Shown here: piece by piece, positions 13,118-36,017 of the stretch | Numbering within the stretch: position 1 is the first letter of the stretch | Layout: each line of letters starts with the position of its first letter | Source: Myxococcales bacterium | Lineage (GTDB): Bacteria > Myxococcota_A > Polyangia > Polyangiales > JAFGIB01 | Direction: 5' to 3' | DNA: 36,017 nt | NCBI GenBank assembly: GCA_028817905.1 | Contig: JAPPOR010000151.1 | Span: forward strand, 5,815-41,831 | Translations under genes and position numbers: made by a program | Notes under the pieces: model-generated | Databases searched by the model: none | What the model was told of the DNA's origin: nothing | The model's input: only the letters and a program-made list of their open reading frames with translations

Positions 13118-14248
13118 ATGCCACGCCCCCTGCGCTCCCATCTCTCTACTCTTGCCTGCGCGTTGTTCCTTGTTGCCTGTGATGCCCATGTGACCCACGC
13201 GGAGGGTCATGGCAAGCCTGCGGTGGTGCGCCCGCAGGCGGCTGAACGGGTTGCCACGTTGGCTGGCGGTTGTTTTTGGTGCATGGAGCCCCCGTTCGAG
13301 GGCCTGGCGGGCGTACGGTCGGTTCAATCCGGCTATGCCGGTGGCAAGGAAAAGGACCCGGACTACAAGGACGTGTCTTACGGCCGAACCGGGCACACCG
13401 AGGCGGTGCAAATCGTGTTCGATCCGAAGGTGGTCTCCTACGAGCGCCTGCTCGAAGTGTTCTTTCGCAGCATGGACCCGACCGACCTGGGCGGACAGTT
13501 CGCCGACCGGGGCAAGCAGTATCGTCCCGCGATCTTCGTTCGCGACGACACCCAACGCCGTGTGGCTGAGAAGGTCAAGCAACGAGTGGCCAAGTCTGGG
13601 CGCTTCAAGAAGCCAGTCGTGGTTCCGATAGTGGCATTTACGACGTTCTACCCCGCCGAGAACTATCACCAGGACTACTACAAGAAGGACCCCCGCGAGT
13701 ACAAACGGTACCGGCGCGCGTCCGGGCGGGAAGGCTTCCTCAAGCGTGTATGGGGTAAGGATATCGCCGACCACGGGCCTACGAAGGAGCGCAGCTACGG
13801 GCGACCCCCAGAGGCAGAGCTCAAACGCCGTTTGACGTCGCTTCAGTACGAGGTGACGCAGCAGAACGGCACCGAGCGACCCTTCAAGAACCGCTACTGG
13901 AACAACCAGCAAGCTGGCATCTATGTAGACGTCGTTTCCGGTGAGCCCCTCTTCAGTTCCCTAGACAAGTTCAAGTCCGGGACCGGTTGGCCGTCTTTCA
14001 CCCGACCTCTGGTGACTGACCACGTCGTGAAGAAGGTTGATCAGAGTCACGGCATGCGGCGAGTGGAGGTGCGCTCCAAGCATGGCAACTCCCACCTGGG
14101 CCACGTATTCGAGGACGGTCCCGCGCCAACTGGTCTGCGCTACTGCATCAACTCGGCATCCCTGCGCTTTGTGCCTGCATCGGAGCTTGGCCAGGAGGGC
14201 TATGGGGAGTTCACCCCTCTGTTCAGCCCGGATGCCGCTGGGCGATGA
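13118..14248 (+). CDS. msrAB: Lipoprotein MsrA-MsrB methionine sulfoxide reductase fusion
   Basis: A 376-residue fused enzyme that repairs both stereoisomers of methionine sulfoxide. I start it at ATG 13118, because that places a signal peptide ending in LFLVAC directly at the N-terminus (C21 lipidated); an ATG at 13025 adds a non-signal extension. The MsrA domain (about 45-210) has GCFWC with C52 catalytic, the GTGHTEAVQ-like [13 protein letters not shown] strand and [12 protein letters not shown]. The MsrB domain (about 232-370) has [21 protein letters not shown] and [11 protein letters not shown] with C343 catalytic. The usual first MsrB zinc CxxC is replaced ([11 protein letters not shown]), so this MsrB probably binds no zinc. 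It likely works in the periplasm on oxidised envelope proteins and overlaps the convergent rluA-type gene by 26 bases. Confidence 0.93.
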
Positions 14249-15152
14249 AGTCGGCCATATCGCGCGGTAGCGGGGCGGCTACACATAACCGCTGCCCGCT
14301 CGGGTGGGTCAGCTCGAGCTCGGCGGCGTGCAGCAGTTGGCGGGTTGGAACGTCGGCGCGCGTCAGGTCTTCCGTTCGCCCATACAGCTCGTCGCGGATG
14401 ATCGGATGACCGAGATGCCGCAGGTGTACGCGCAGCTGATGCTGCCTGCCGGTCTCCAGGCCGAGGCGCACCAGGGCCGCTAGCGCCAAGCGCTGCTCTG
14501 TCCAAAAGTGGGTAACCGCGGGCTTTCCGTGGTGGGGATCCACGATCACGTGTTGATCGGACGTCGAGCGCAGGGGGGCATCGATCGTTCCCGCCTCGGG
14601 CGGCTGGCCGTGTACCACCGCTAAGTAGGTCTTGCGCACGCGCCTGTCGGCGAACTGCTGCGTGACGGCACGGGCGGCTGCGCGATGCTTGGCAAACGCG
14701 ATCACCCCGCTCGTTTCACGGTCGAGGCGGTGGACGATGCAGGGCTCGACGTCCCGCTCGCCCCGCTGCTCGCGGTACATGAAACGCAAACGGTTGAGAA
14801 GGTTCTCGTGGATGTACCGTCCAGTCGGTTGCACGGCCAGGTCGCCCGGCTTGTTCACGATCACCAGGGCGTCGTCTTCATAGAGGATGGATACGGGAAT
14901 GGCGGCATAGTCGAACTGGGTCCGGTAGCTGTCTGGGAGCTGTAGGGTGATCTCGTCTCCGACCCTCAAACGAAAGGCCTTCTTCACTCGCGCCCCGTTG
15001 ACGCGCACGGTTCCGTCCGAGAGCAGCGACATGAAGTATTGCCGAGAGCGCCAATTGAAGCGCCTGGGCAGGTACGCGTCGATGCGTTGGCCGGCGTGCT
15101 CCCGGGGGACGCGGACGGTCACATGGTCTACGGGCCTGGAAAAATCCGTCAC
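14223..15152 (-). CDS. RluA-family rRNA/tRNA pseudouridine synthase
   Basis: A 309-residue pseudouridine synthase starting at GTG (complement of 15150-15152). An S4-like RNA-binding domain occupies about residues 15-75 ([10 protein letters not shown]...[24 protein letters not shown]). The catalytic domain starts at [19 protein letters not shown] and holds the RluA motif HRLDRETSG at 141-149, with D144 catalytic, then [10 protein letters not shown] and [25 protein letters not shown]. The RNA target (RluA, RluC or RluD type) cannot be decided from sequence alone. Its leader can fold a hairpin that contains the probable ribosome site, and its 3' end overlaps msrAB. Confidence 0.92.
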
Positions 15153-26537: not shown

Positions 26538-26736
26538 GCCCAGTGTTGACTGCCGGGCCGCCGGCCTGCTGTCCGAATGGAGGGGGGCCCACCCGCGTTG
26601 TGCAGGGCTGGCGGGACCGCTATAGGAGCGGCAGGCGGAATCCTTCCTGAGGTCAATAGAGTCTCTGGGTTTGGTCACTAGCCCCTTAATATTACGAGCT
26701 TTTTTTGGCTCTAAGACTGGCGAATGGAGTGGCAAG

Positions 26737-27864
26737 GTGCGCGTAGGAATGATTGGTTGGCGCGGCATGGTGGGCTCGGTCCTGATGGATCGCATGCGCG
26801 CATGCGGCGATTTCGGGGACATTGAGCCGACGTTCTTCTCTACCTCCAACGCGGGGGGGAAGGCACCGTCGGTGGCAGGGGCATCGCCTGGTCGCCTGCA
26901 AGACGCGTTCAACTTGGATGCGCTGATGCAGCTGCCTGTCCTCGTTTCCTGTCAGGGCGGAGACTACACGGACAAGGTCCATGATGCGCTACGTGGCCGT
27001 GGCTGGACGGGCTACTGGATCGATGCGGCTAGCAAGCTGCGTATGCGGTCCGAGAGTGTACTCGTCCTGGACCCGGTGAACGCCCACGTTATCGCGCGCG
27101 GCCTTTCCGAGGGGTGCAAGACGTTCTGCGGAGCCAACTGCACGGTGAGCCTGATGCTGATGGCTCTGCAAGGGCTGTTTCGGGCGGGGCACGTCGAGTG
27201 GGTGACCTCGATGACCTACCAGGCAGCCTCGGGAGCCGGGGCCCAGCACATGCGTGAGCTAATCGCTCAGATGGCCCACGTGGCAGCGGGTTGTGAAGAT
27301 CTGCTCGCCGATCCTGCCAGCACAGCCCTCGAGGTCGACGCGCGTGTGGGCGGCGCCCTGCGGGAGGAGGCGCTTCCCACCGCAGCCTTTGGCGTTCCCC
27401 TCGCGGGCAGCGCTCTGCCATGGATCGACGTGCCCAGCGGGTCGGGTCGGACCCGGGAGGAGGCCAAAGCCCATGAGGAGGGCAACAAACTGTTGGGCCT
27501 CGAACCGAGCCCGATCCCTATCGACGGCATCTGCGTTCGCATCGGTTCGATGCGATGTCACGCGCAGGCATTCACGATCAAGCTGCGCCAAGACCTACCA
27601 CTGGATGAGGTCGAAGAGATTGTCGCGACAGCGAACGATTGGGTTCGCCTGGTGCCGAACGATCGCGAAGCCACCCTGCGAGAGCTGACACCCGCACGCG
27701 TGAGTGGACAGCTCGAGGTGCCGATCGGAAGGCTTCACAAGCTCAGAATGGGCGGCGAGTACCTAACCGGCTTTTCGGTGGGCGATCAGCTGCTGTGGGG
27801 CGCCGCCGAACCCCTGCGGCGAATGCTGCAACTCCTGAAGGAGAGCGAGCGCGTTCCTAGTTAG
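26737..27864 (+). CDS. asd: Aspartate-semialdehyde dehydrogenase (proteobacterial type)
   Basis: A 375-residue enzyme that reduces aspartyl phosphate to aspartate semialdehyde with NADPH, feeding lysine/diaminopimelate, threonine, methionine and isoleucine synthesis. I start it at GTG 26737, with GGAG 8 bases upstream, because homologues begin VGxIGWRGMVGSVLM; the TTG at 26671 is rejected. The catalytic Cys lies in CGANCTVSLMLMAL; the phosphate and NADP sites are in GWRGMVGSVLMDRM, SCQGGDYT and WIDAASKLRM. SMRCHAQAFTIKL near 290 carries the expected active-site His. It matches the E. coli form in length and order. It overlaps the convergent thiolase gene by 8 bases. Confidence 0.95.
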   Translation: MRVGMIGWRGMVGSVLMDRMRACGDFGDIEPTFFSTSNAGGKAPSVAGASPGRLQDAFNLDALMQLPVLVSCQGGDYTDKVHDALRGRGWTGYWIDAASKLRMRSESVLVLDPVNAHVIARGLSEGCKTFCGANCTVSLMLMALQGLFRAGHVEWVTSMTYQAASGAGAQHMRELIAQMAHVAAGCEDLLADPASTALEVDARVGGALREEALPTAAFGVPLAGSALPWIDVPSGSGRTREEAKAHEEGNKLLGLEPSPIPIDGICVRIGSMRCHAQAFTIKLRQDLPLDEVEEIVATANDWVRLVPNDREATLRELTPARVSGQLEVPIGRLHKLRMGGEYLTGFSVGDQLLWGAAEPLRRMLQLLKESERVPS

Positions 27865-29065
27865 CACGCTCGAGAACCATTGCGATGCCCTGGCCGACGC
27901 CGATGCACATCGTGCACAGCGCGTAGCGCGCCTCGCGTTGGGCCAACTCGTAGCAGGCGGTGGTCACGAGTCTTGCGCCACTCATACCAAGTGGGTGGCC
28001 CAGCGCGATCGCACCCCCGTTTGGATTGACGCGTGCATCATCATCTTGAACGCCCAGGTCGCGCAAGACGGCCAGGCCCTGGGCGGCGAACGCTTCATTG
28101 AGCTCGATCACACCCATGTCCGCGAGCGAAAGGCCCGTCCGCGCGAGGACCTTCTTGGTGGCGGGCGAGGGTCCCATACCCATGATACGGGGTGGTACGC
28201 CGGCCGTCGCCATCGCGACGACACGGGCCCGTGGGGTGAGTCCGTGGCGCTTGATAGCGTCGCCCGAGGCCACGAGTAGCGCGCACGCACCGTCGTTGAC
28301 CCCCGAGGCGTTGCCGGCGGTCACCGTACCATCCTCCCGAAACGGGGTCGGCAGCTTGGCGAGCTTCTGCAGGGTCGTGTCGGGGCGCGGATGCTCGTCC
28401 CGGTCGACGACCAGCGCTTCTTGCTTGCGCCGCGGTACTGACACCGGGACGATTTCCCGCGCCAGGCGCCCGTTCTCCATGGAAGCGGCGGCACGCTGTT
28501 GGCTCAGCACGGCGAACGCGTCCTGATCGGCGCGACTGATGTCGTAGTCAGCGGCGACATTTTCGGCGGTTTCGGGCATGGAGTCGACGCCGTACTGGGA
28601 CTTCATCAGCTTGTTCACAAAGCGCCAGCCGATCGTGGTGTCGTAGAGCTCGGCGTTTCGGCTAAATGCGCCGGTTGCCTTGGGCATCACGAACGGGGCG
28701 CGCGACATCGACTCGACCCCGCCCGCCAGGATGAAATCGGCCTCGTTCGCCTTGATTGCCCGGGCCGCGATGCCGATTGCGTCCATGCCCGATCCACACA
28801 AACGGTTGACCGTGGTTCCAGGCACCTGGATCGACAGGCCCGCCAGCAACGACGCCATCCGGGCCACGTTTCGGTTGTCTTCCCCCGCCTGGTTGGCGCA
28901 CCCATAGACGACGTCGTCCAGGGTGCTGAAGTCCGCTTCGGGGTTGCGTTCTACCAGTGCGCGCATCGGGATCGCCGCCAGGTCGTCCGCACGTACGGCC
29001 GAAAGGGCACCTCCGAAGCGGCCGATGGGTGTACGAATGGCATCGCAAATGAAGGCATCTCTCAC
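27857..29065 (-). CDS. pcaF: Thiolase, 3-oxoadipyl-CoA/acetyl-CoA acyltransferase type
   Basis: A 402-residue thiolase starting at GTG (complement of 29063-29065), with a strong AGGAGGAGGAG ribosome site just upstream. The acyl-accepting Cys lies in TTVNRLCGSGMDAIG; the second Cys and His pairs are in NEAFAAQGLAV, GGAIALGHPLGMSGARLV and LCTMCIGVGQGIAMV. The sequence, notably MRDAFICDAIRTPIGRFGGALS and MGMGPSPATKKVL, is close to PcaF-type 3-oxoadipyl-CoA thiolase, but related beta-ketothiolases share these motifs. It lies 111 bp downstream of the PKS gene on the same strand and could be its neighbour only by rearrangement; no other aromatic-degradation genes are present. Confidence 0.87.
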   Translation of the reverse strand: MRDAFICDAIRTPIGRFGGALSAVRADDLAAIPMRALVERNPEADFSTLDDVVYGCANQAGEDNRNVARMASLLAGLSIQVPGTTVNRLCGSGMDAIGIAARAIKANEADFILAGGVESMSRAPFVMPKATGAFSRNAELYDTTIGWRFVNKLMKSQYGVDSMPETAENVAADYDISRADQDAFAVLSQQRAAASMENGRLAREIVPVSVPRRKQEALVVDRDEHPRPDTTLQKLAKLPTPFREDGTVTAGNASGVNDGACALLVASGDAIKRHGLTPRARVVAMATAGVPPRIMGMGPSPATKKVLARTGLSLADMGVIELNEAFAAQGLAVLRDLGVQDDDARVNPNGGAIALGHPLGMSGARLVTTACYELAQREARYALCTMCIGVGQGIAMVLERAN

Positions 29066-29176: not shown

Positions 29177-32100
29177 TCACCGTTCGCCGGCCCGCTCGTC
29201 TTCGCGGCGTCCAGCGCGGGTGGTGAACCCGGAGCGGTGTCGAGTGACCGTGTGGGCTTCCTTGAGCAATGGATGGGAGATGGGCGGGGACGAGGGCGTG
29301 CGCTCCTCGCCTTCGAGCTGTCGTTCCGGGAACTCCAGCCAGCATCGTTGGCGCTGGAAGGGATAGTGGGGAACCTCGCACATGCGATACCCGAACGGTG
29401 CATCCAGGCCGGCGAGGCGTGGGGCCGCCCCGGCGACGTACAGCTGTCCAAGGGCGCTGAGCAAGCTTTCCCATGGGTGGTCTTCCTGGGCGAGCAGGCC
29501 CAGCGGGGTTGGTCGGGGCCCTCCCGTCAGTTGGTCCCCAGCGGGTCCGAGGAAGACCTCGAATGGGGTCTCTAGCGCGTTGAGGCTCCCCCGCCCATCC
29601 TCGGGGTCCGGAGTGTGAAGAAGCTGGCGGCCGAAGTGGCCGTCAGGCACGGGCGCGTCGGGCCCGAATTGCGCATCGCCGGCACTCCCGAGGATCAGTG
29701 GGTAGCGGGGGGGCGAGAGCGGGACGCGGTCGGCGGCCTCGCTGAACTGCCGACGCGTCAGCCGCACCGTCATACCCGGACGGAGGCTTGCGAGCGTATC
29801 GGCCCGCTTGATCAAGAGGGAAAGGGCGTCATCCCAAGAGAGCGCTCCGACCACGCACGCGGCACTGTATTCGCCTGCGCCCTGTCCCATTGCGGCCACC
29901 GGCTTCAGCTCCGACAGGGCGAACCACTGTGCAAGGGCCCGGTGCACTGCGAAGCGAGCGACGTCGCGGTGTCGCGGGTCCCGCAGCCAGTGCGACCCGT
30001 CTGTATCGCTCAGGACCATTTCCGCGCCTGGTACCCCAAGAGCGGCCGCCTTGCGGGCCGTTGCGTCGAACGCTGCTTTCGCGATCGGATGACTCCGCGC
30101 CAGGGTCGCCATGAGCTTCGGCGTTAGAGGCCCCTCGTCGAACGTGAGTGTTAGGTGTGCTGTTAGGGCCTCAGCCGGCGTTACACCCTGCCACATACGC
30201 GGGGTTGGCTCTTCTGGAGGATTCGAGGGACTTCCGACACGGGTTTCGCGGCTGTCGACGGGCGAGCCGCCTCGCAGCAGCTCTCCTAGGTCTTGCCCGT
30301 CCGGGACGAGTAGTGCCCGCCGGTGTCGAAAGTGAGCACGACCTTCGGCGAGCGTGTGGCAAACGTCGCCGACCGTGGCCTCGCGACAGCCGCGGGCGAG
30401 TCGTGCTGCTACGGCATCGAGGGCTGCTCGGGTGCGTCCCGACAGGAGCGCCAGATGCCAGGGCCGCCGCTCGTCAGGTGCTCGGGGCCCTTGTTCAGGC
30501 CTGCGTACTGGGCGCCTGATGGGGCGCTCCCGGGTCGACCGCGAGGCGGCGTGACCCGGCCCCGGGCGTGGGACTTGGTTGACCGAGTGGTTCGCCTCCG
30601 AGAGCGGGGCCTCGGTCAGGATGGCGTGCGCGTTGGCCCCTCCAAACCCAAACGCGCTGACCCCCGCGTATCGTTTGCGAACGTTGTGTTTGTCGCGTGC
30701 CCAAGCTATGGGAACCGTTGGGACTTCGAGCGGCAGTCGATCGAGTCCGAGATCAGGGTGGGGGTCATTGAAGTGGAGGTGTGCGGGCACTTCCTCGTGT
30801 TCGAGAGCCAGGGTGGTTTTGATTAGGGCGGCGATGCCCGCCGCGGCTTCCAAGTGACCAAGGTTGGTCTTGATAGATCCGAGCAAGCATGGCCGCTCCA
30901 GTGAACGTCCGCGCATGAGCGCGCCCAGCGCGTTCACTTCCACTGCGTCGGAAACCGGTGTGCCCACGCCATGCGCCTCGACGTAGTCGAGGTCATCCGC
31001 ACCGATACCCGCGCGTCCGAGGGCCCGCTCGATGACGCGCTGCTGTGCGCGACCATTGGGGGCCACCAGACCATTGGCTTGCCCGGTGTGGTTGACGGCG
31101 ATGCCAGCCACGAGCGCCCGAGCCTGCACACCGAGGCGTCGTGCGTGAGAAAGGCGCGTGATGACCAGAACACCGGCACCTTCGCTTCGCACGAAGCCGT
31201 CGGCGGCGGCGTCGAAAGTGCGACAGCAACCGCTGGGTGAGAGCATGCCCGCCTGTGAGAAGTAGACCGATGCTTCTGGGGCAAGGATCGCGTTTGCGCC
31301 GCCCACGAGGGCCAGCTCGCAGTCTCCGCGTTCCAGGGCAGTACAGGCAGCGTCAAGTGCCACCAGGCCGGACGCGCAGGCCGCGTCGACGGTCACCGAT
31401 GGACCCTGGAAGTTGAAGCAATGACTCACACGGTTGGCGATGATACCTGTCGAGTTGCCGGTTCCGTAGTCACCGTCGATCAGGTTGAGATCGCCGCCAT
31501 AGAGGACCGCATAGTCGCTACTCGCGGCGCCCATGAACACACCGGTCTCGGTGCCGGCCAAGGAGACCGGGGCGATGCATGCGTCTTCGAGTGCCTCCCA
31601 CGCCACCTCCAATGTCAGGCGTTGCTGGGGGTCCATTCGCTCCGCCTCGCGTGTCGAGAGGCCAAAGAACCCGGGGTCGAACTCGTCGATACCTGCGATG
31701 AAGCCGCCCCGTCGGGTGCACACTTTCCCTCGTACGCGTGGTTCCGGGTCGTACAGCGCATCGATATTCCAGCGCCACGCGGGCACTTCGGTGACCGCGT
31801 CGACCGCACCTCGCAGAAGCTGCCAAAGCTCGCGCGTATTGTCCGCGCCCGGGAAGCGACATCCCATGCCTACGATTGCGATCGGGTCTCTCGGGCGACC
31901 GTTGTCGCGGCCTTGGGGCCTGGACCGGCGAGACGATTGTTCGGGCCTGCGCTGTGCTGGTAGTGATTGTGCGTGCTCAAGCTCAAGGATGGCCTGGGCG
32001 AGTTCGGCAATCGACGGGTTATCATAGGTGATGGTGGTCGGCAGTGGCTGACCAAGCCAGCGTTCCAGCTCCTCGGCTAGCTCGGCCAGAACGAGTGAAT

Positions 32101-34102
32101 CGGCTCCGTACTGTGCTAGTGACGCGCGTGGGTCGATGTCCTCGAAGGCGAGGCCGAGCCTGTCCGCCAGTGCCTGTACGAGGAATCGCGTTACGGACCG
32201 GGTGTCGCGTGACTGTTGGCTAGCTCTGCCGGTGGCGTCCGCAGGTGCGCTCCTGTTGGCGCCCACAGTGCGCGTTCGGGCCGGAGCGGGTGGAAGAATG
32301 GGTTCGACCATGCGGGGCGGAGGGTCCGCGTAGCTTGCGGGCGCGCGGGTCGCGGGCCAAGTGGCCGTTATGGTGAAGTCCCCCGCCAGCCATGCGTCAC
32401 GGACCGCGTGCCGCTTGATCTTGCCGCTGGATGTCTTGGGGAGTTGGCCACGCTTGATCAGGACGACCGCATGCGGGCTGACGCCGAAGTCGCGGAGGAT
32501 CGCATCGGGAATGGTGGCGACCAACGCTTCCGGATCGCCGCCTGACCGTTTGTCGAATTCTTGCACGAGGACTACTTGTTCGCCTTGCCCGTCGTCGAAG
32601 CCAAAGGCTGCTCCACCGTCGCGGACCAGGGCGGGGTCCAGCGCCTGCACTGCGCGCTCGAGATCATGAGGAACCATGTTGCGCCCGCGGACGATGATAA
32701 TTTCCTTGCGCCGGCCGGTGATGAACAACTCGCCATCGTCGACGAAGCCCAGGTCCCCAGTGCGCAAGTAGCTCGCTTCTGTTTCGGTGACGACGGTCGC
32801 TCCGAAGATCTGTGGCGTCGTGTCGTTCCCTTTCCAATAGCCTGCGGCGATAGAGGGGCCGCGCACCCAGATCTCCCCCACCTGACCGTTCGGCATCGGG
32901 GTATGCGTGTCGGCATCGACGATCCGGATCTCGGTTCCCGGTACGGGGCTCCCACAACTGACGATCCGTCGCCCTTCCACTTCCCCCTCGGGTAGCTCGA
33001 TGATCCGACCGTGCTCGAGGGCGCGGCTGTCAAGTCTGCGCACGCGCGGCGCTGCATTGGGCTTGCTTCCCGTCACGAGCAGGGTCGCTTCGGCCAAGCC
33101 GTAGGCAGGGAACAGGGCCTCGCGCCGGAAGCCCGCCGGGCTGAAGCTCGCTACGAAGCGGTCCAGCGTGTCGGCGCTGATGGGTTCGCTGCCTACTAGA
33201 CAGAGACGCACGCAGGAGAGATCGAGGTCGGCGGTTTCGGCCGGCTTGATCCGTCGGACGCAAAGGTCGAGCGCGAAGTTGGGCGTCATGAGGATGCTGG
33301 CGCGAAAGCGGGACACCGCTCGCAGCCAGCGCGCGGGCTTGCGAATGAACGACTCAGTCGGCATCAGCACGCAGTGGACGCCGGTGAATACTGAACCCAG
33401 CAGTCCGCCGATCAGACCCATGTCGTGGAACGGCGGCAGCCAGGAAAGTGCGATGTCATCCGGTTGGCCCGCCAAAGCGGCCCGACTATGATGGAGGTTG
33501 GCTATCAGATTGGCATGCGTGATCAGAACTCCCTTGGGGTTGGAGGTCGACCCCGACGTGTACTGAAGGATTGCTGGTGTTTCGGGTGCCAGCGTTGGGA
33601 GTACGAATTCTGAGTGGCTTTGGGATGGGTGTGCCACGTCCAGACCACGCAACCGCTCAGCGCCGGGTGTTGTGGCAAGAGCGTGCAGATGCTCTGGTGT
33701 GCCGATAGCTACCCGCGCGTCGGCGTCGTCGAGGATTCGGACGACCCGCTCACCCGCCCGCGCAAGTTGACGGGGATTGGGTGGGTAGGTCGGCACGGCG
33801 ACGGCGCCCGTTGCCAGGCAGCCGAGCAGGCCGCAGATGTAATCCAGGCCGGCCGGGTACATGACCAGCACCCGATCCCCCGGGTGCACCCTTGCCCGCC
33901 CGAGCTCTTGGGCAACCGCCGTCACCCTCTCGTTCAGCTGCGCAAAGGTGAGGGTAGCAATCGGCTGCCCAGGTCCCGGCGCAAAGGAGAAGGCCGTCGC
34001 GGCTCCTCGTTCCAGGGCGTGCCGCCTCATGACTTCGATCACGGTGCCGTGCTGCCGCGCCGGGCTATCGTGCCGGTGACGTTGTGCTCCATTTCGCTCC
34101 AT
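29177..34102 (-). CDS. FAAL-ACP-KS-degenerate AT polyketide synthase, 3'-truncated in DH
   Basis: A 1641-residue modular synthase. Fatty-acyl-AMP ligase (about 20-585): YTSGSTSNPKG at 181-191, YGLAEAT at 334, RTGD at 447 and the terminal K561 in KTSSGKIK; it should activate a fatty acid and load it on the ACP. ACP (637-706): phosphopantetheine Ser S669 in YGADSL. Ketosynthase (740-1165): C909 in DAACASG, H1044 in EAHGVGT, H1083 in NLGHLE, all catalytic residues present. AT-like (about 1310-1590): the GHSxG nucleophile motif reads GQGAGE at 1406-1411, so the Ser is Gly (G1408), and the usual N-terminal GQGSQ is missing; this AT looks dead. The post-AT linker HYPFQRQRCW is intact, then SHPLL (1609-1613) resembles the opening of a dehydratase domain, after which the frame stops. 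The product family is likely a lipopeptide. Confidence 0.9.
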   Translation of the reverse strand: MERNGAQRHRHDSPARQHGTVIEVMRRHALERGAATAFSFAPGPGQPIATLTFAQLNERVTAVAQELGRARVHPGDRVLVMYPAGLDYICGLLGCLATGAVAVPTYPPNPRQLARAGERVVRILDDADARVAIGTPEHLHALATTPGAERLRGLDVAHPSQSHSEFVLPTLAPETPAILQYTSGSTSNPKGVLITHANLIANLHHSRAALAGQPDDIALSWLPPFHDMGLIGGLLGSVFTGVHCVLMPTESFIRKPARWLRAVSRFRASILMTPNFALDLCVRRIKPAETADLDLSCVRLCLVGSEPISADTLDRFVASFSPAGFRREALFPAYGLAEATLLVTGSKPNAAPRVRRLDSRALEHGRIIELPEGEVEGRRIVSCGSPVPGTEIRIVDADTHTPMPNGQVGEIWVRGPSIAAGYWKGNDTTPQIFGATVVTETEASYLRTGDLGFVDDGELFITGRRKEIIIVRGRNMVPHDLERAVQALDPALVRDGGAAFGFDDGQGEQVVLVQEFDKRSGGDPEALVATIPDAILRDFGVSPHAVVLIKRGQLPKTSSGKIKRHAVRDAWLAGDFTITATWPATRAPASYADPPPRMVEPILPPAPARTRTVGANRSAPADATGRASQQSRDTRSVTRFLVQALADRLGLAFEDIDPRASLAQYGADSLVLAELAEELERWLGQPLPTTITYDNPSIAELAQAILELEHAQSLPAQRRPEQSSRRSRPQGRDNGRPRDPIAIVGMGCRFPGADNTRELWQLLRGAVDAVTEVPAWRWNIDALYDPEPRVRGKVCTRRGGFIAGIDEFDPGFFGLSTREAERMDPQQRLTLEVAWEALEDACIAPVSLAGTETGVFMGAASSDYAVLYGGDLNLIDGDYGTGNSTGIIANRVSHCFNFQGPSVTVDAACASGLVALDAACTALERGDCELALVGGANAILAPEASVYFSQAGMLSPSGCCRTFDAAADGFVRSEGAGVLVITRLSHARRLGVQARALVAGIAVNHTGQANGLVAPNGRAQQRVIERALGRAGIGADDLDYVEAHGVGTPVSDAVEVNALGALMRGRSLERPCLLGSIKTNLGHLEAAAGIAALIKTTLALEHEEVPAHLHFNDPHPDLGLDRLPLEVPTVPIAWARDKHNVRKRYAGVSAFGFGGANAHAILTEAPLSEANHSVNQVPRPGPGHAASRSTRERPIRRPVRRPEQGPRAPDERRPWHLALLSGRTRAALDAVAARLARGCREATVGDVCHTLAEGRAHFRHRRALLVPDGQDLGELLRGGSPVDSRETRVGSPSNPPEEPTPRMWQGVTPAEALTAHLTLTFDEGPLTPKLMATLARSHPIAKAAFDATARKAAALGVPGAEMVLSDTDGSHWLRDPRHRDVARFAVHRALAQWFALSELKPVAAMGQGAGEYSAACVVGALSWDDALSLLIKRADTLASLRPGMTVRLTRRQFSEAADRVPLSPPRYPLILGSAGDAQFGPDAPVPDGHFGRQLLHTPDPEDGRGSLNALETPFEVFLGPAGDQLTGGPRPTPLGLLAQEDHPWESLLSALGQLYVAGAAPRLAGLDAPFGYRMCEVPHYPFQRQRCWLEFPERQLEGEERTPSSPPISHPLLKEAHTVTRHRSGFTTRAGRREDERAGER

Positions 34103-34168
34103 TGGGAGATATGTAGTACCGCCTAGGAGCCCGGCGAGATAGCATCGATTGGTCCCACAAGCCCCTCG

Positions 34169-34182
34169 CTTTCGCGCGAAAG
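34169..34182. repeat. CTTTCGCGCGAAAG palindrome in the PKS/NRPS spacer
   Basis: A perfect 14-bp palindrome followed by TACAG, identical in flavour to the inner CGCTTTCG...CGAAAGTACAG segment of element copy A. The divergent spacer 34103-34437 holds no gene. A TTGACG (about 34309) and TAAAAT (about 34291) are present but in an order that does not make a good promoter in either direction. Confidence 0.4.
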
Positions 34183-34437
34183 TACAGATCTTCTCACTTT
34201 TTCGTTTCCAGCCTGCGACCGGGGACAGGCCCTTGCGTGGTTACGAGGGCCCCACGGGATTCACCGCATCCCACTCTGTATCCATTCGGTAAAATCTGGA
34301 AACTGTCCTTGACGGACCAGCGGACCTCCCCGCAGGATTCGGGGCAGTTGAGGAAGGAAGTGTGATCTTTCTCACGCTTTCTGTTGATGTGCTGGCGAGT
34401 AGGTGCTGGCTGACGCGCTCGGGGGGAATCATGTCCG

Positions 34438-36017
34438 ATGCGTACCGACACACGAATAGAGCTTGAGTTTCAGCTGGCCGGCAGTGGCCTTCCGGAAGCT
34501 GTGACACCCGGCCTGGCCCTCGAGCTCATGGCGGCCTCCGCGCAGGCCGCGGGCCAGAATTGGTCTGAGCTGTGCGACTTCTGGGCGTACGCTTACGTGC
34601 CAGCAGAGACGCTGCGCCTACAAGTGGACGTGGATGGTGAGATTCGAGTGTATGGGTCTTGCCTCGGCGGCACCGACCAAGTTCTGGCGTTCGCTCACCT
34701 CGGCCGACCGCCGGCCGACGGTGGCGCCGAGCCGGTGGAGGCTGATACCCAGTTCGCTGGAATGACGCCGGCAGTCCTGTGGCGGGGCCACGATCCGGCG
34801 GAGGACGCCTCCTACTATCTTCATCCGCAATATCTCGACGCGGCCCTGGCAGTGCTCGGGCTGTCCGCGGCCATCGATAGGAGAGCCTGCCTGCTCGTCT
34901 CGTCGGTTCGTTTTTTGGCGCTGAATGCATCGCCGACGCATGTTGTGGCGACCGCTGCAAGCGGGGAAGGGTCGGGGGAGCGCACGCTCGCCCTTCTTGA
35001 AGAAGCTCGGGCGGTGGTATTGCTGGAGGGTGCTCGGTTAGGGTCCCTGCCGGTCCATCAGGCGGTTGAGCTGTCGACCTTGAGTAGTCTCGTCGCGGAT
35101 GTGCTCGAGCTCGACGAGGTGCCGCCGAATGTCAACCTCAAGGAGCTCGGGGCGTCGTCCGTGCACTTCGCGAGGATTAGCAACGCGCTCCAAGATCGCT
35201 TCGGATGCGCCCCCAGTTTGCCCACACTTCTGAGCGGGACCAGTGTGGCGGTACTGCTACGCTACTATGTCGAACAGGTTGGAGGGGAGCACGCCCGGCT
35301 GCCCGATCTGCTCGCGGCGAGCGAACGGAGCAGGTGGCCGCTTACGCCTCCGCAGCAGCAGCAATGGTTGCGACTGCAGGCCAAGCCGACGGACAATAGC
35401 TACAATATTGCGTTCCGCTGGCGCTTCAGCTCTGCTGTGGACCCACAGGCGCTCGAAAGTGCGCTGATGCGGTTGCTGGAGCGCCACGAGGTCCTCCGAG
35501 CGCCAGTGGTCGTGGCCGCGGACGGTACCCCCTTCCAGGAGGTAACGGCGATCGCCGCTTGCCCCAGTCCCCTTCTTGTTTGTGACGACGAGCGAGAGCT
35601 GCTCGTTCGACGGGAGCAAGGTGTCGTTGATCCAACGGCCGCTCCCCTGTTGCGCGCGACGTTGCTTTGCAGTTCGCAGGGCGGTTGCCTATTCTCCCTG
35701 GTTTTTTCCCACCTAGTCGTGGATGATGCGGCGCTTCTTCAGCTCTTTGCCGATCTCGAGCGGTTGTACAGCGCCGAGACGGGCGCTGACGTCGAGCTTG
35801 GAGACCCGGATGTACCGTATTGCGACGCGGCCTGGTGGTTTGCGTCGGAGGCTGTTCGCGGGCACTTGGCGGACCTAGCGCGGGGGTCGACGGAGGCCGC
35901 CCTGCTAGCACCGCCTACCAGAGTCAGTCTGTCGCCCAACGACATGCCTGACCTCGACGCACCGGCCGCCAGGCTGCGGATGGAGTTCAGCGCCGCGGAG
36001 CGGGCTGAGCTCTCTGC
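34438..36017 (+). CDS. PKS-NRPS hybrid synthase beginning inside a dehydratase domain (partial)
   Basis: The frame stays open to the right edge, so at least 526 residues are visible. I start it at ATG 34438; an in-frame TGA at 34411 limits any upstream extension to eight codons. Residues about 20-205 look like a PKS dehydratase lacking its N-terminal strand: TPGLALELMAASAQAAGQ matches the 'PGxAxLEl' region of hot-dog 1, and YYLHPQYLDAALAVL matches the HPxLLDAxxQ motif of hot-dog 2 with its catalytic Asp (D134). The catalytic His of the DHxVxG motif is not seen. A carrier protein follows (214-282, S241 in LGASSV), then a condensation domain from about 298 whose HHxxxDG motif reads SHLVVDD (H425 catalytic, D429). 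No KS precedes the dehydratase in this gene. Confidence 0.85.
   Translation, partial: MRTDTRIELEFQLAGSGLPEAVTPGLALELMAASAQAAGQNWSELCDFWAYAYVPAETLRLQVDVDGEIRVYGSCLGGTDQVLAFAHLGRPPADGGAEPVEADTQFAGMTPAVLWRGHDPAEDASYYLHPQYLDAALAVLGLSAAIDRRACLLVSSVRFLALNASPTHVVATAASGEGSGERTLALLEEARAVVLLEGARLGSLPVHQAVELSTLSSLVADVLELDEVPPNVNLKELGASSVHFARISNALQDRFGCAPSLPTLLSGTSVAVLLRYYVEQVGGEHARLPDLLAASERSRWPLTPPQQQQWLRLQAKPTDNSYNIAFRWRFSSAVDPQALESALMRLLERHEVLRAPVVVAADGTPFQEVTAIAACPSPLLVCDDERELLVRREQGVVDPTAAPLLRATLLCSSQGGCLFSLVFSHLVVDDAALLQLFADLERLYSAETGADVELGDPDVPYCDAAWWFASEAVRGHLADLARGSTEAALLAPPTRVSLSPNDMPDLDAPAARLRMEFSAAERAELS

Follow-up and report, generated by a model that had tools for sequence, protein, structure and literature searches.

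A conserved, probably old two-subunit lipopeptide assembly line with one module divided between acyltransferase and dehydratase-like domains on divergent genes

Within the window (the whole 36,017-nucleotide stretch of DNA that was analysed), two divergent genes carry fatty acyl-AMP ligase (FAAL)-like, PKS and NRPS domains, and are called here subunit 1 (minus strand) and subunit 2 (plus strand; Table 1). Besides the domains tabulated, Pfam matched a KS-AT linker in the subunit 1 protein, and several FAAL models of NCBIfam matched the same protein at E values of 1e-77 to 1e-118, all of them below the curated cut-offs. The ketosynthase (KS) triad of this protein is complete (Cys-His-His, in ACAS, EAHG and NLGH), and the ACP serines are present. 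The contig (41,831 bases) stops where the window stops, inside the subunit 2 gene, so the missing 3' end of this gene is an assembly gap, separate from the division of the dehydratase (DH) described below; the other contigs of this assembly contain many NRPS fragments, none of which could be assigned as its continuation. No sigma-70-like promoter match was found in the intergenic region. A short ORF (MSDAYRHTNRA, 34431-34466, plus strand) begins 7 bp upstream of the ATG of subunit 2, after a G-rich stretch, and could possibly be an alternative start signal or a leader. The FAAL gene is followed after 111 bp by a thiolase gene (27857-29065) that is likewise on the minus strand and is adjoined by a gene of the semialdehyde dehydrogenase family (26671-27864, plus strand); no thiolase beside the FAAL gene was seen among the large ORFs listed in three related genomes (G002-G004).

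Table 1. Features of the two divergent genes, in positions of the window
Feature	Position	Strand	Basis
Subunit 1 gene, FAAL-ACP-KS-AT (dead)-first DH strand-tail, 1641 aa	29177-34102	-	ORF; Pfam; homologues in G002-G006
Fatty acyl-AMP ligase-like adenylation domain	32342-34045	-	AMP-binding 2.1e-73
ACP1 (GADSL)	31988-32185	-	PP-binding 1.5e-13
Ketosynthase, Cys-His-His present	30605-31888	-	ketoacyl-synt 1.9e-91; residues; KS tree
Degenerate acyltransferase (AT), about 75 aa deleted	29369-30277	-	GHSxGE to GQGAGE at 29870-29887
HPLL, first dehydratase strand motif kept on subunit 1	29264-29275	-	Sequence; HPL invariant in 6/6
C-terminal tail of subunit 1, ends REDERAGER; proposed docking tail	29180-29263	-	Homologous to G006 tail
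Intergenic region between the two divergent starts, 335 bp (73-552 bp in relatives)	34103-34437		
Subunit 2 gene, 5' part, DH-like-ACP-C; runs off contig end	34438-36017	+	ORF; Pfam
Pseudo-dehydratase without first strand, HxxxGxxxxP motif and part of second hot-dog	34438-35037	+	Custom HMM; Pfam matches of relatives; fold of G002 homologue
ACP2 (GASSV)	35077-35265	+	PP-binding 1.2e-8
Condensation domain, N-terminal half, cut by contig end	35335-36015	+	Condensation 2.1e-15, profile 5-181 of 456

The subunit 1 protein ends with HYPFQRQRCW, followed by SHPLLKEAHTVTRHRSGFTTRAGRREDERAGER and a stop; the preliminary description had read this end as the first strands of a PKS dehydratase, and the sequence bears this out for the first strand (HPLL). 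A frameshift check in three frames past the stop codon found no dehydratase continuation. The tail of the window protein (RSGFTTRAGRREDERA) was compared by shuffling with that of a further genome, G006 (RSGFVPRRREDETA), in which the same end of subunit 1 is preserved on a contig fragment, and the two are similar (0/5000 shuffles as good); similarity of the window tail to those of the other relatives is not individually significant in this test. The C-terminal tail of the FAAL protein appears from these comparisons to be a conserved gene end and no random read-through. Both genes had been described as incomplete, which holds for subunit 2, through the end of the contig, and does not hold for subunit 1, whose tail is conserved and homologous to that of G006.

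For the start of subunit 2, Pfam gave no dehydratase match in the window protein even at an E value of 1, and homologues and a custom HMM were therefore used instead. The homologous stretch of G002 is matched by PKS_DH_N (7.6e-10) and PS-DH (7.9e-24), and that of G003 by the same two families (1.4e-5 and 1.6e-8), with weaker matches in G005; PKS_DH_N is matched only from profile position 16 (G002) or 13 (G003), a few residues from the protein start. An HMM was built from 18 unsplit DH domains, and scored G002 at 145 bits (from position 14), G003 at 70, G005 at 56, the window at 10, and G004 at 2 bits. After the relatives were added to the model, the window scored 20 bits, a value reached by 0/500 shuffles (best shuffle 7.8). 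A profile of four subunit 2 starts matches solved PKS dehydratases at 8.8e-18, and the model of the G002 N-terminus is a double hot-dog (pLDDT 85.5) that matches PKS dehydratase domains with Z about 31, the values for 7zmf being Z 31.2 and an rmsd of 2.3 over 258 residues; the AF2 model of the window's own DH-ACP stretch is poor (pLDDT 50). The dehydratase domain is real in the family and decayed to varying degrees, and the start of the window's subunit 2 is best described as a dehydratase-like domain, placed by homology, the window copy being among the most decayed. The earlier reading of this gene as opening in the rest of a dehydratase, followed by ACP and condensation domains, is upheld to this extent: the Pfam search of the window protein alone fails, and the starts of the relatives and the custom HMM succeed.

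The two ends complement each other. Subunit 2 homologues start at position 13-22 of the custom DH profile, so the absent start of the domain is what subunit 1 carries: the motif of the first DH strand and the tail are found at its C-terminus, and in subunit 2 hardly any residues precede the second strand. The proposal that pieces of one dehydratase lie on divergent genes is borne out by this correspondence.

Four further genomes (G002, locus L118; G003, L117; G004, L116; G005, L120), which belong to the same family as the window genome and represent three further genera, carry this pair of genes in the same head-to-head order and cut at the same point. When genomes of the family were searched with each protein, G002, G003 and G004 proved to have the two genes together. 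In the fetched loci, FAAL-ACP-KS-AT is divergent from DH-like-ACP-C-A-PCP with 73-552 bp between the starts, and every FAAL gene ends alike, with the post-AT motif, HPL[LI], 22-32 residues, and a stop. After YPF-R-W, HPL is the only invariant block (6/6 sequences), in a region where identity to the window is 26-38%. Subunit 1 is 1514-1641 aa long in five genomes, and subunit 2 is 1722-1825 aa long in G002, G003 and G005. It ends in a TE (G002) or a reductase (G004 and G005); in G003, about 400 aa past the last carrier domain (L117, 9022-10236), where a TE or reductase stands in relatives, gave no Pfam match. In G004, the frame of subunit 2 contains a TAG within the pseudo-dehydratase (L116, about 13601-14290), reflecting either a pseudogene or a sequence error. 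Subunit 2 is adjoined by a further gene in three genomes (L116, 18780-20000; L117, 10212-14033; L118, 2-1198), which by eye reads in G003 as a Ser/Thr kinase with an ATPase and repeat regions, and C-terminal pieces similar to it, again by eye, adjoin subunit 2 in G002 and G004. No near-identical close relative was found in the species collection, and the phage collection gave no match.

Inspection of active sites showed that the AT nucleophile motif GHSxGE is replaced by GxGxGE in 5/5 ATs, with the catalytic Ser absent (the window's GQGAGEY aligns to GHSVGEY of CurL), and that a deletion of about 75 residues is common to all five. The spacing between this motif and YPFxR, 174 aa in the window and 153-182 in the family, does not overlap with that of 45 canonical ATs (226-267). 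The catalytic His of the dehydratase (HxxxGxxxxP) is W, L and V in G002, G003 and G005, respectively, and is lost in the window together with its segment; the catalytic Asp (HPxxLD) is kept in the window as HPQYLD, and is G in G002 and E in G003. Because the catalytic His is absent, dehydration by the joined halves is not expected. We infer that what remains of the AT and DH has lost catalysis and acts as a scaffold. The Cys-His-His triad of the KS is complete in 4/5 genomes (window, G003, G004 and G005), which fits a KS that would still condense and leaves the source of malonyl unexplained; in G002 (L118, 8711-13636) the last His is Ser (KTNFGSMEAA), which suggests a non-condensing KS in that genome.

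For the age of the split, a KS tree including unsplit FAAL-KS-AT(-DH) proteins from Cyanobacteria, Actinomycetota and others was examined, and the KS domains from all five genomes group in a single clade (SH-aLRT 97). The existence of such unsplit proteins (e.g. L027 and L029) agrees with the preliminary description, which had called the fused layout ordinary. A profile spanning AT to tail was run on 318 genomes of the class and scored the family at 1e-127 to 1e-144 and the G006 fragment at 1.8e-60, with the next loci at 5e-57 and weaker; most of the next-ranked loci examined continue in one frame without a stop into the following segment, which is DH-like in several. Across 379 sampled genomes of the phylum, no further split members were found. 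Since the family's KS domains form one clade among unsplit proteins, a single split in the ancestor of the family is most likely. If the 5' half of an unsplit gene were inverted, the divergent pair would result in one step, and the layout may have arisen once in this way; no inverted repeat pairing the two proposed breakpoints was found, in agreement with the preliminary description.

Taken together, the locus is read as a lipopeptide assembly line of two subunits, old and conserved, with a module split between AT and DH, a reading that includes the docking and scaffold proposals and is given a probability of roughly 0.78. The order of acyl activation by FAAL, loading and amide formation follows from the domain order and from established FAAL and NRPS biochemistry. 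Subunit 1 (FAAL-ACP-KS-dead AT) would activate a fatty acid and load it onto ACP1 and the KS, and subunit 2 (dead DH-ACP-C, with A-PCP-TE or A-PCP-reductase next in relatives) would take the acyl chain on ACP2, the chain being either handed over unextended or lengthened with malonyl that is loaded in trans. C-A-PCP would then join the acyl chain to one amino acid by an amide bond. Because the module is split, the two proteins must meet. The first DH strand (HPLL) has stayed on subunit 1 with a short tail after it, the rest of the DH begins subunit 2, and the HPLL tail may dock on the pseudo-dehydratase of the partner, perhaps restoring the missing strand; docking is proposed because HPL is invariant at a detached C-terminus in 6/6 sequences, and because split junctions of this kind are known from the dehydratase-docking (DHD) and cremimycin systems discussed below. 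A wider view, in which a cis-AT lipopeptide module became a two-subunit, trans-AT-like split module in one family, with a dead AT/DH scaffold and with the subunits joined by strand exchange, the partner's C-terminus supplying the first strand of the hot-dog in trans, is considered less likely than not.

The preliminary description had offered a one-off rearrangement or a misassembly as alternatives and had named a comparison of synteny in relatives, in which four genomes from three other genera proved to share the separate ends and the divergent order, the outcome that it had itself put forward as refuting its reading. A recent inversion in the window genome, cutting a working FAAL-KS-AT-DH-ACP-C gene, would account for the complementary ends and for unsplit homologues in other phyla, but is very improbable given that shared arrangement, the conservation of the tail after HPLL, and the decay of AT and DH in all members, which indicates an old event. 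A chimeric contig assembled in the wrong orientation is just as improbable: the assembly is indeed a draft of 1110 contigs and the window stops at a contig end, yet the same junctions occur in four other species, whose draft assemblies are independent. A programmed invertible switch between split and fused forms is the most remote of these readings, being favoured by the layout alone, since no inverted repeat joins the breakpoints, the layout is alike in all five genomes, and the tail is conserved as the end of the gene.

Two further readings accept that the split is shared by the family. If the pair is old and the HPLL tail is leftover linker, the subunits would meet through other surfaces (ACP-KS or KS dimer contacts); the shortness of the tail, its variable length (22-32 aa after HPLL) and its weak similarity outside G006 point this way, but HPL stands as the sole invariant block across six genomes at the low identity given above, and this reading is considered unlikely, if still the strongest competitor. 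A pair of pseudogenes decaying throughout the family would explain why AT and DH are dead everywhere and why the G004 frame is interrupted by a TAG, and is improbable in view of the long ORFs kept for both subunits, the intact KS triad in 4/5, and the retained C-A-PCP-release modules.

On the preferred reading of an old two-subunit assembly line, a presumed error is replaced by a conserved architecture, and the family offers a natural experiment in the cutting and re-docking of modular synthases, with loss of the AT and a split between KS and DH combined in a lineage seemingly separate from the known trans-AT systems. If the HPLL tail is a docking strand, it would provide a compact docking pair for engineering PKS-NRPS hybrids.

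Among known systems, the unsplit FAAL-ACP-KS-AT-DH synthases (L027 of Lyngbya, and L029 and L031 of Streptomyces) have the same domain order and fall in the same part of the KS tree, but are single genes with active GHSVGE and DHRVxGxxxLP motifs, whereas the window pair is split and decayed. In cremimycin biosynthesis, according to a review that cites Kawasaki et al. 2019, one PKS dehydratase is divided over the two polypeptides CmiP3 and CmiP2, and the artificially joined domain dehydrates (PMC11284099). The window pair likewise has a DH divided over two polypeptides; it differs in having lost the catalytic His of the DH, which is active in cremimycin, in its dead AT, and in consisting of divergent genes of a FAAL-PKS-NRPS system. 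In trans-AT PKSs, the two proteins of a DHD junction meet through an extension at the C-terminus of the KS-bearing partner, which contacts the DH itself, and the DH has gained no extra domain (PMC9113145). The window pair shares with these junctions a module split at KS/DH, a C-terminal extension upstream, and a DH N-terminus without an extra domain, and differs, as compared by description, in its cis-AT remnant, in the first DH strand motif carried by the tail, and in its degenerate DH.
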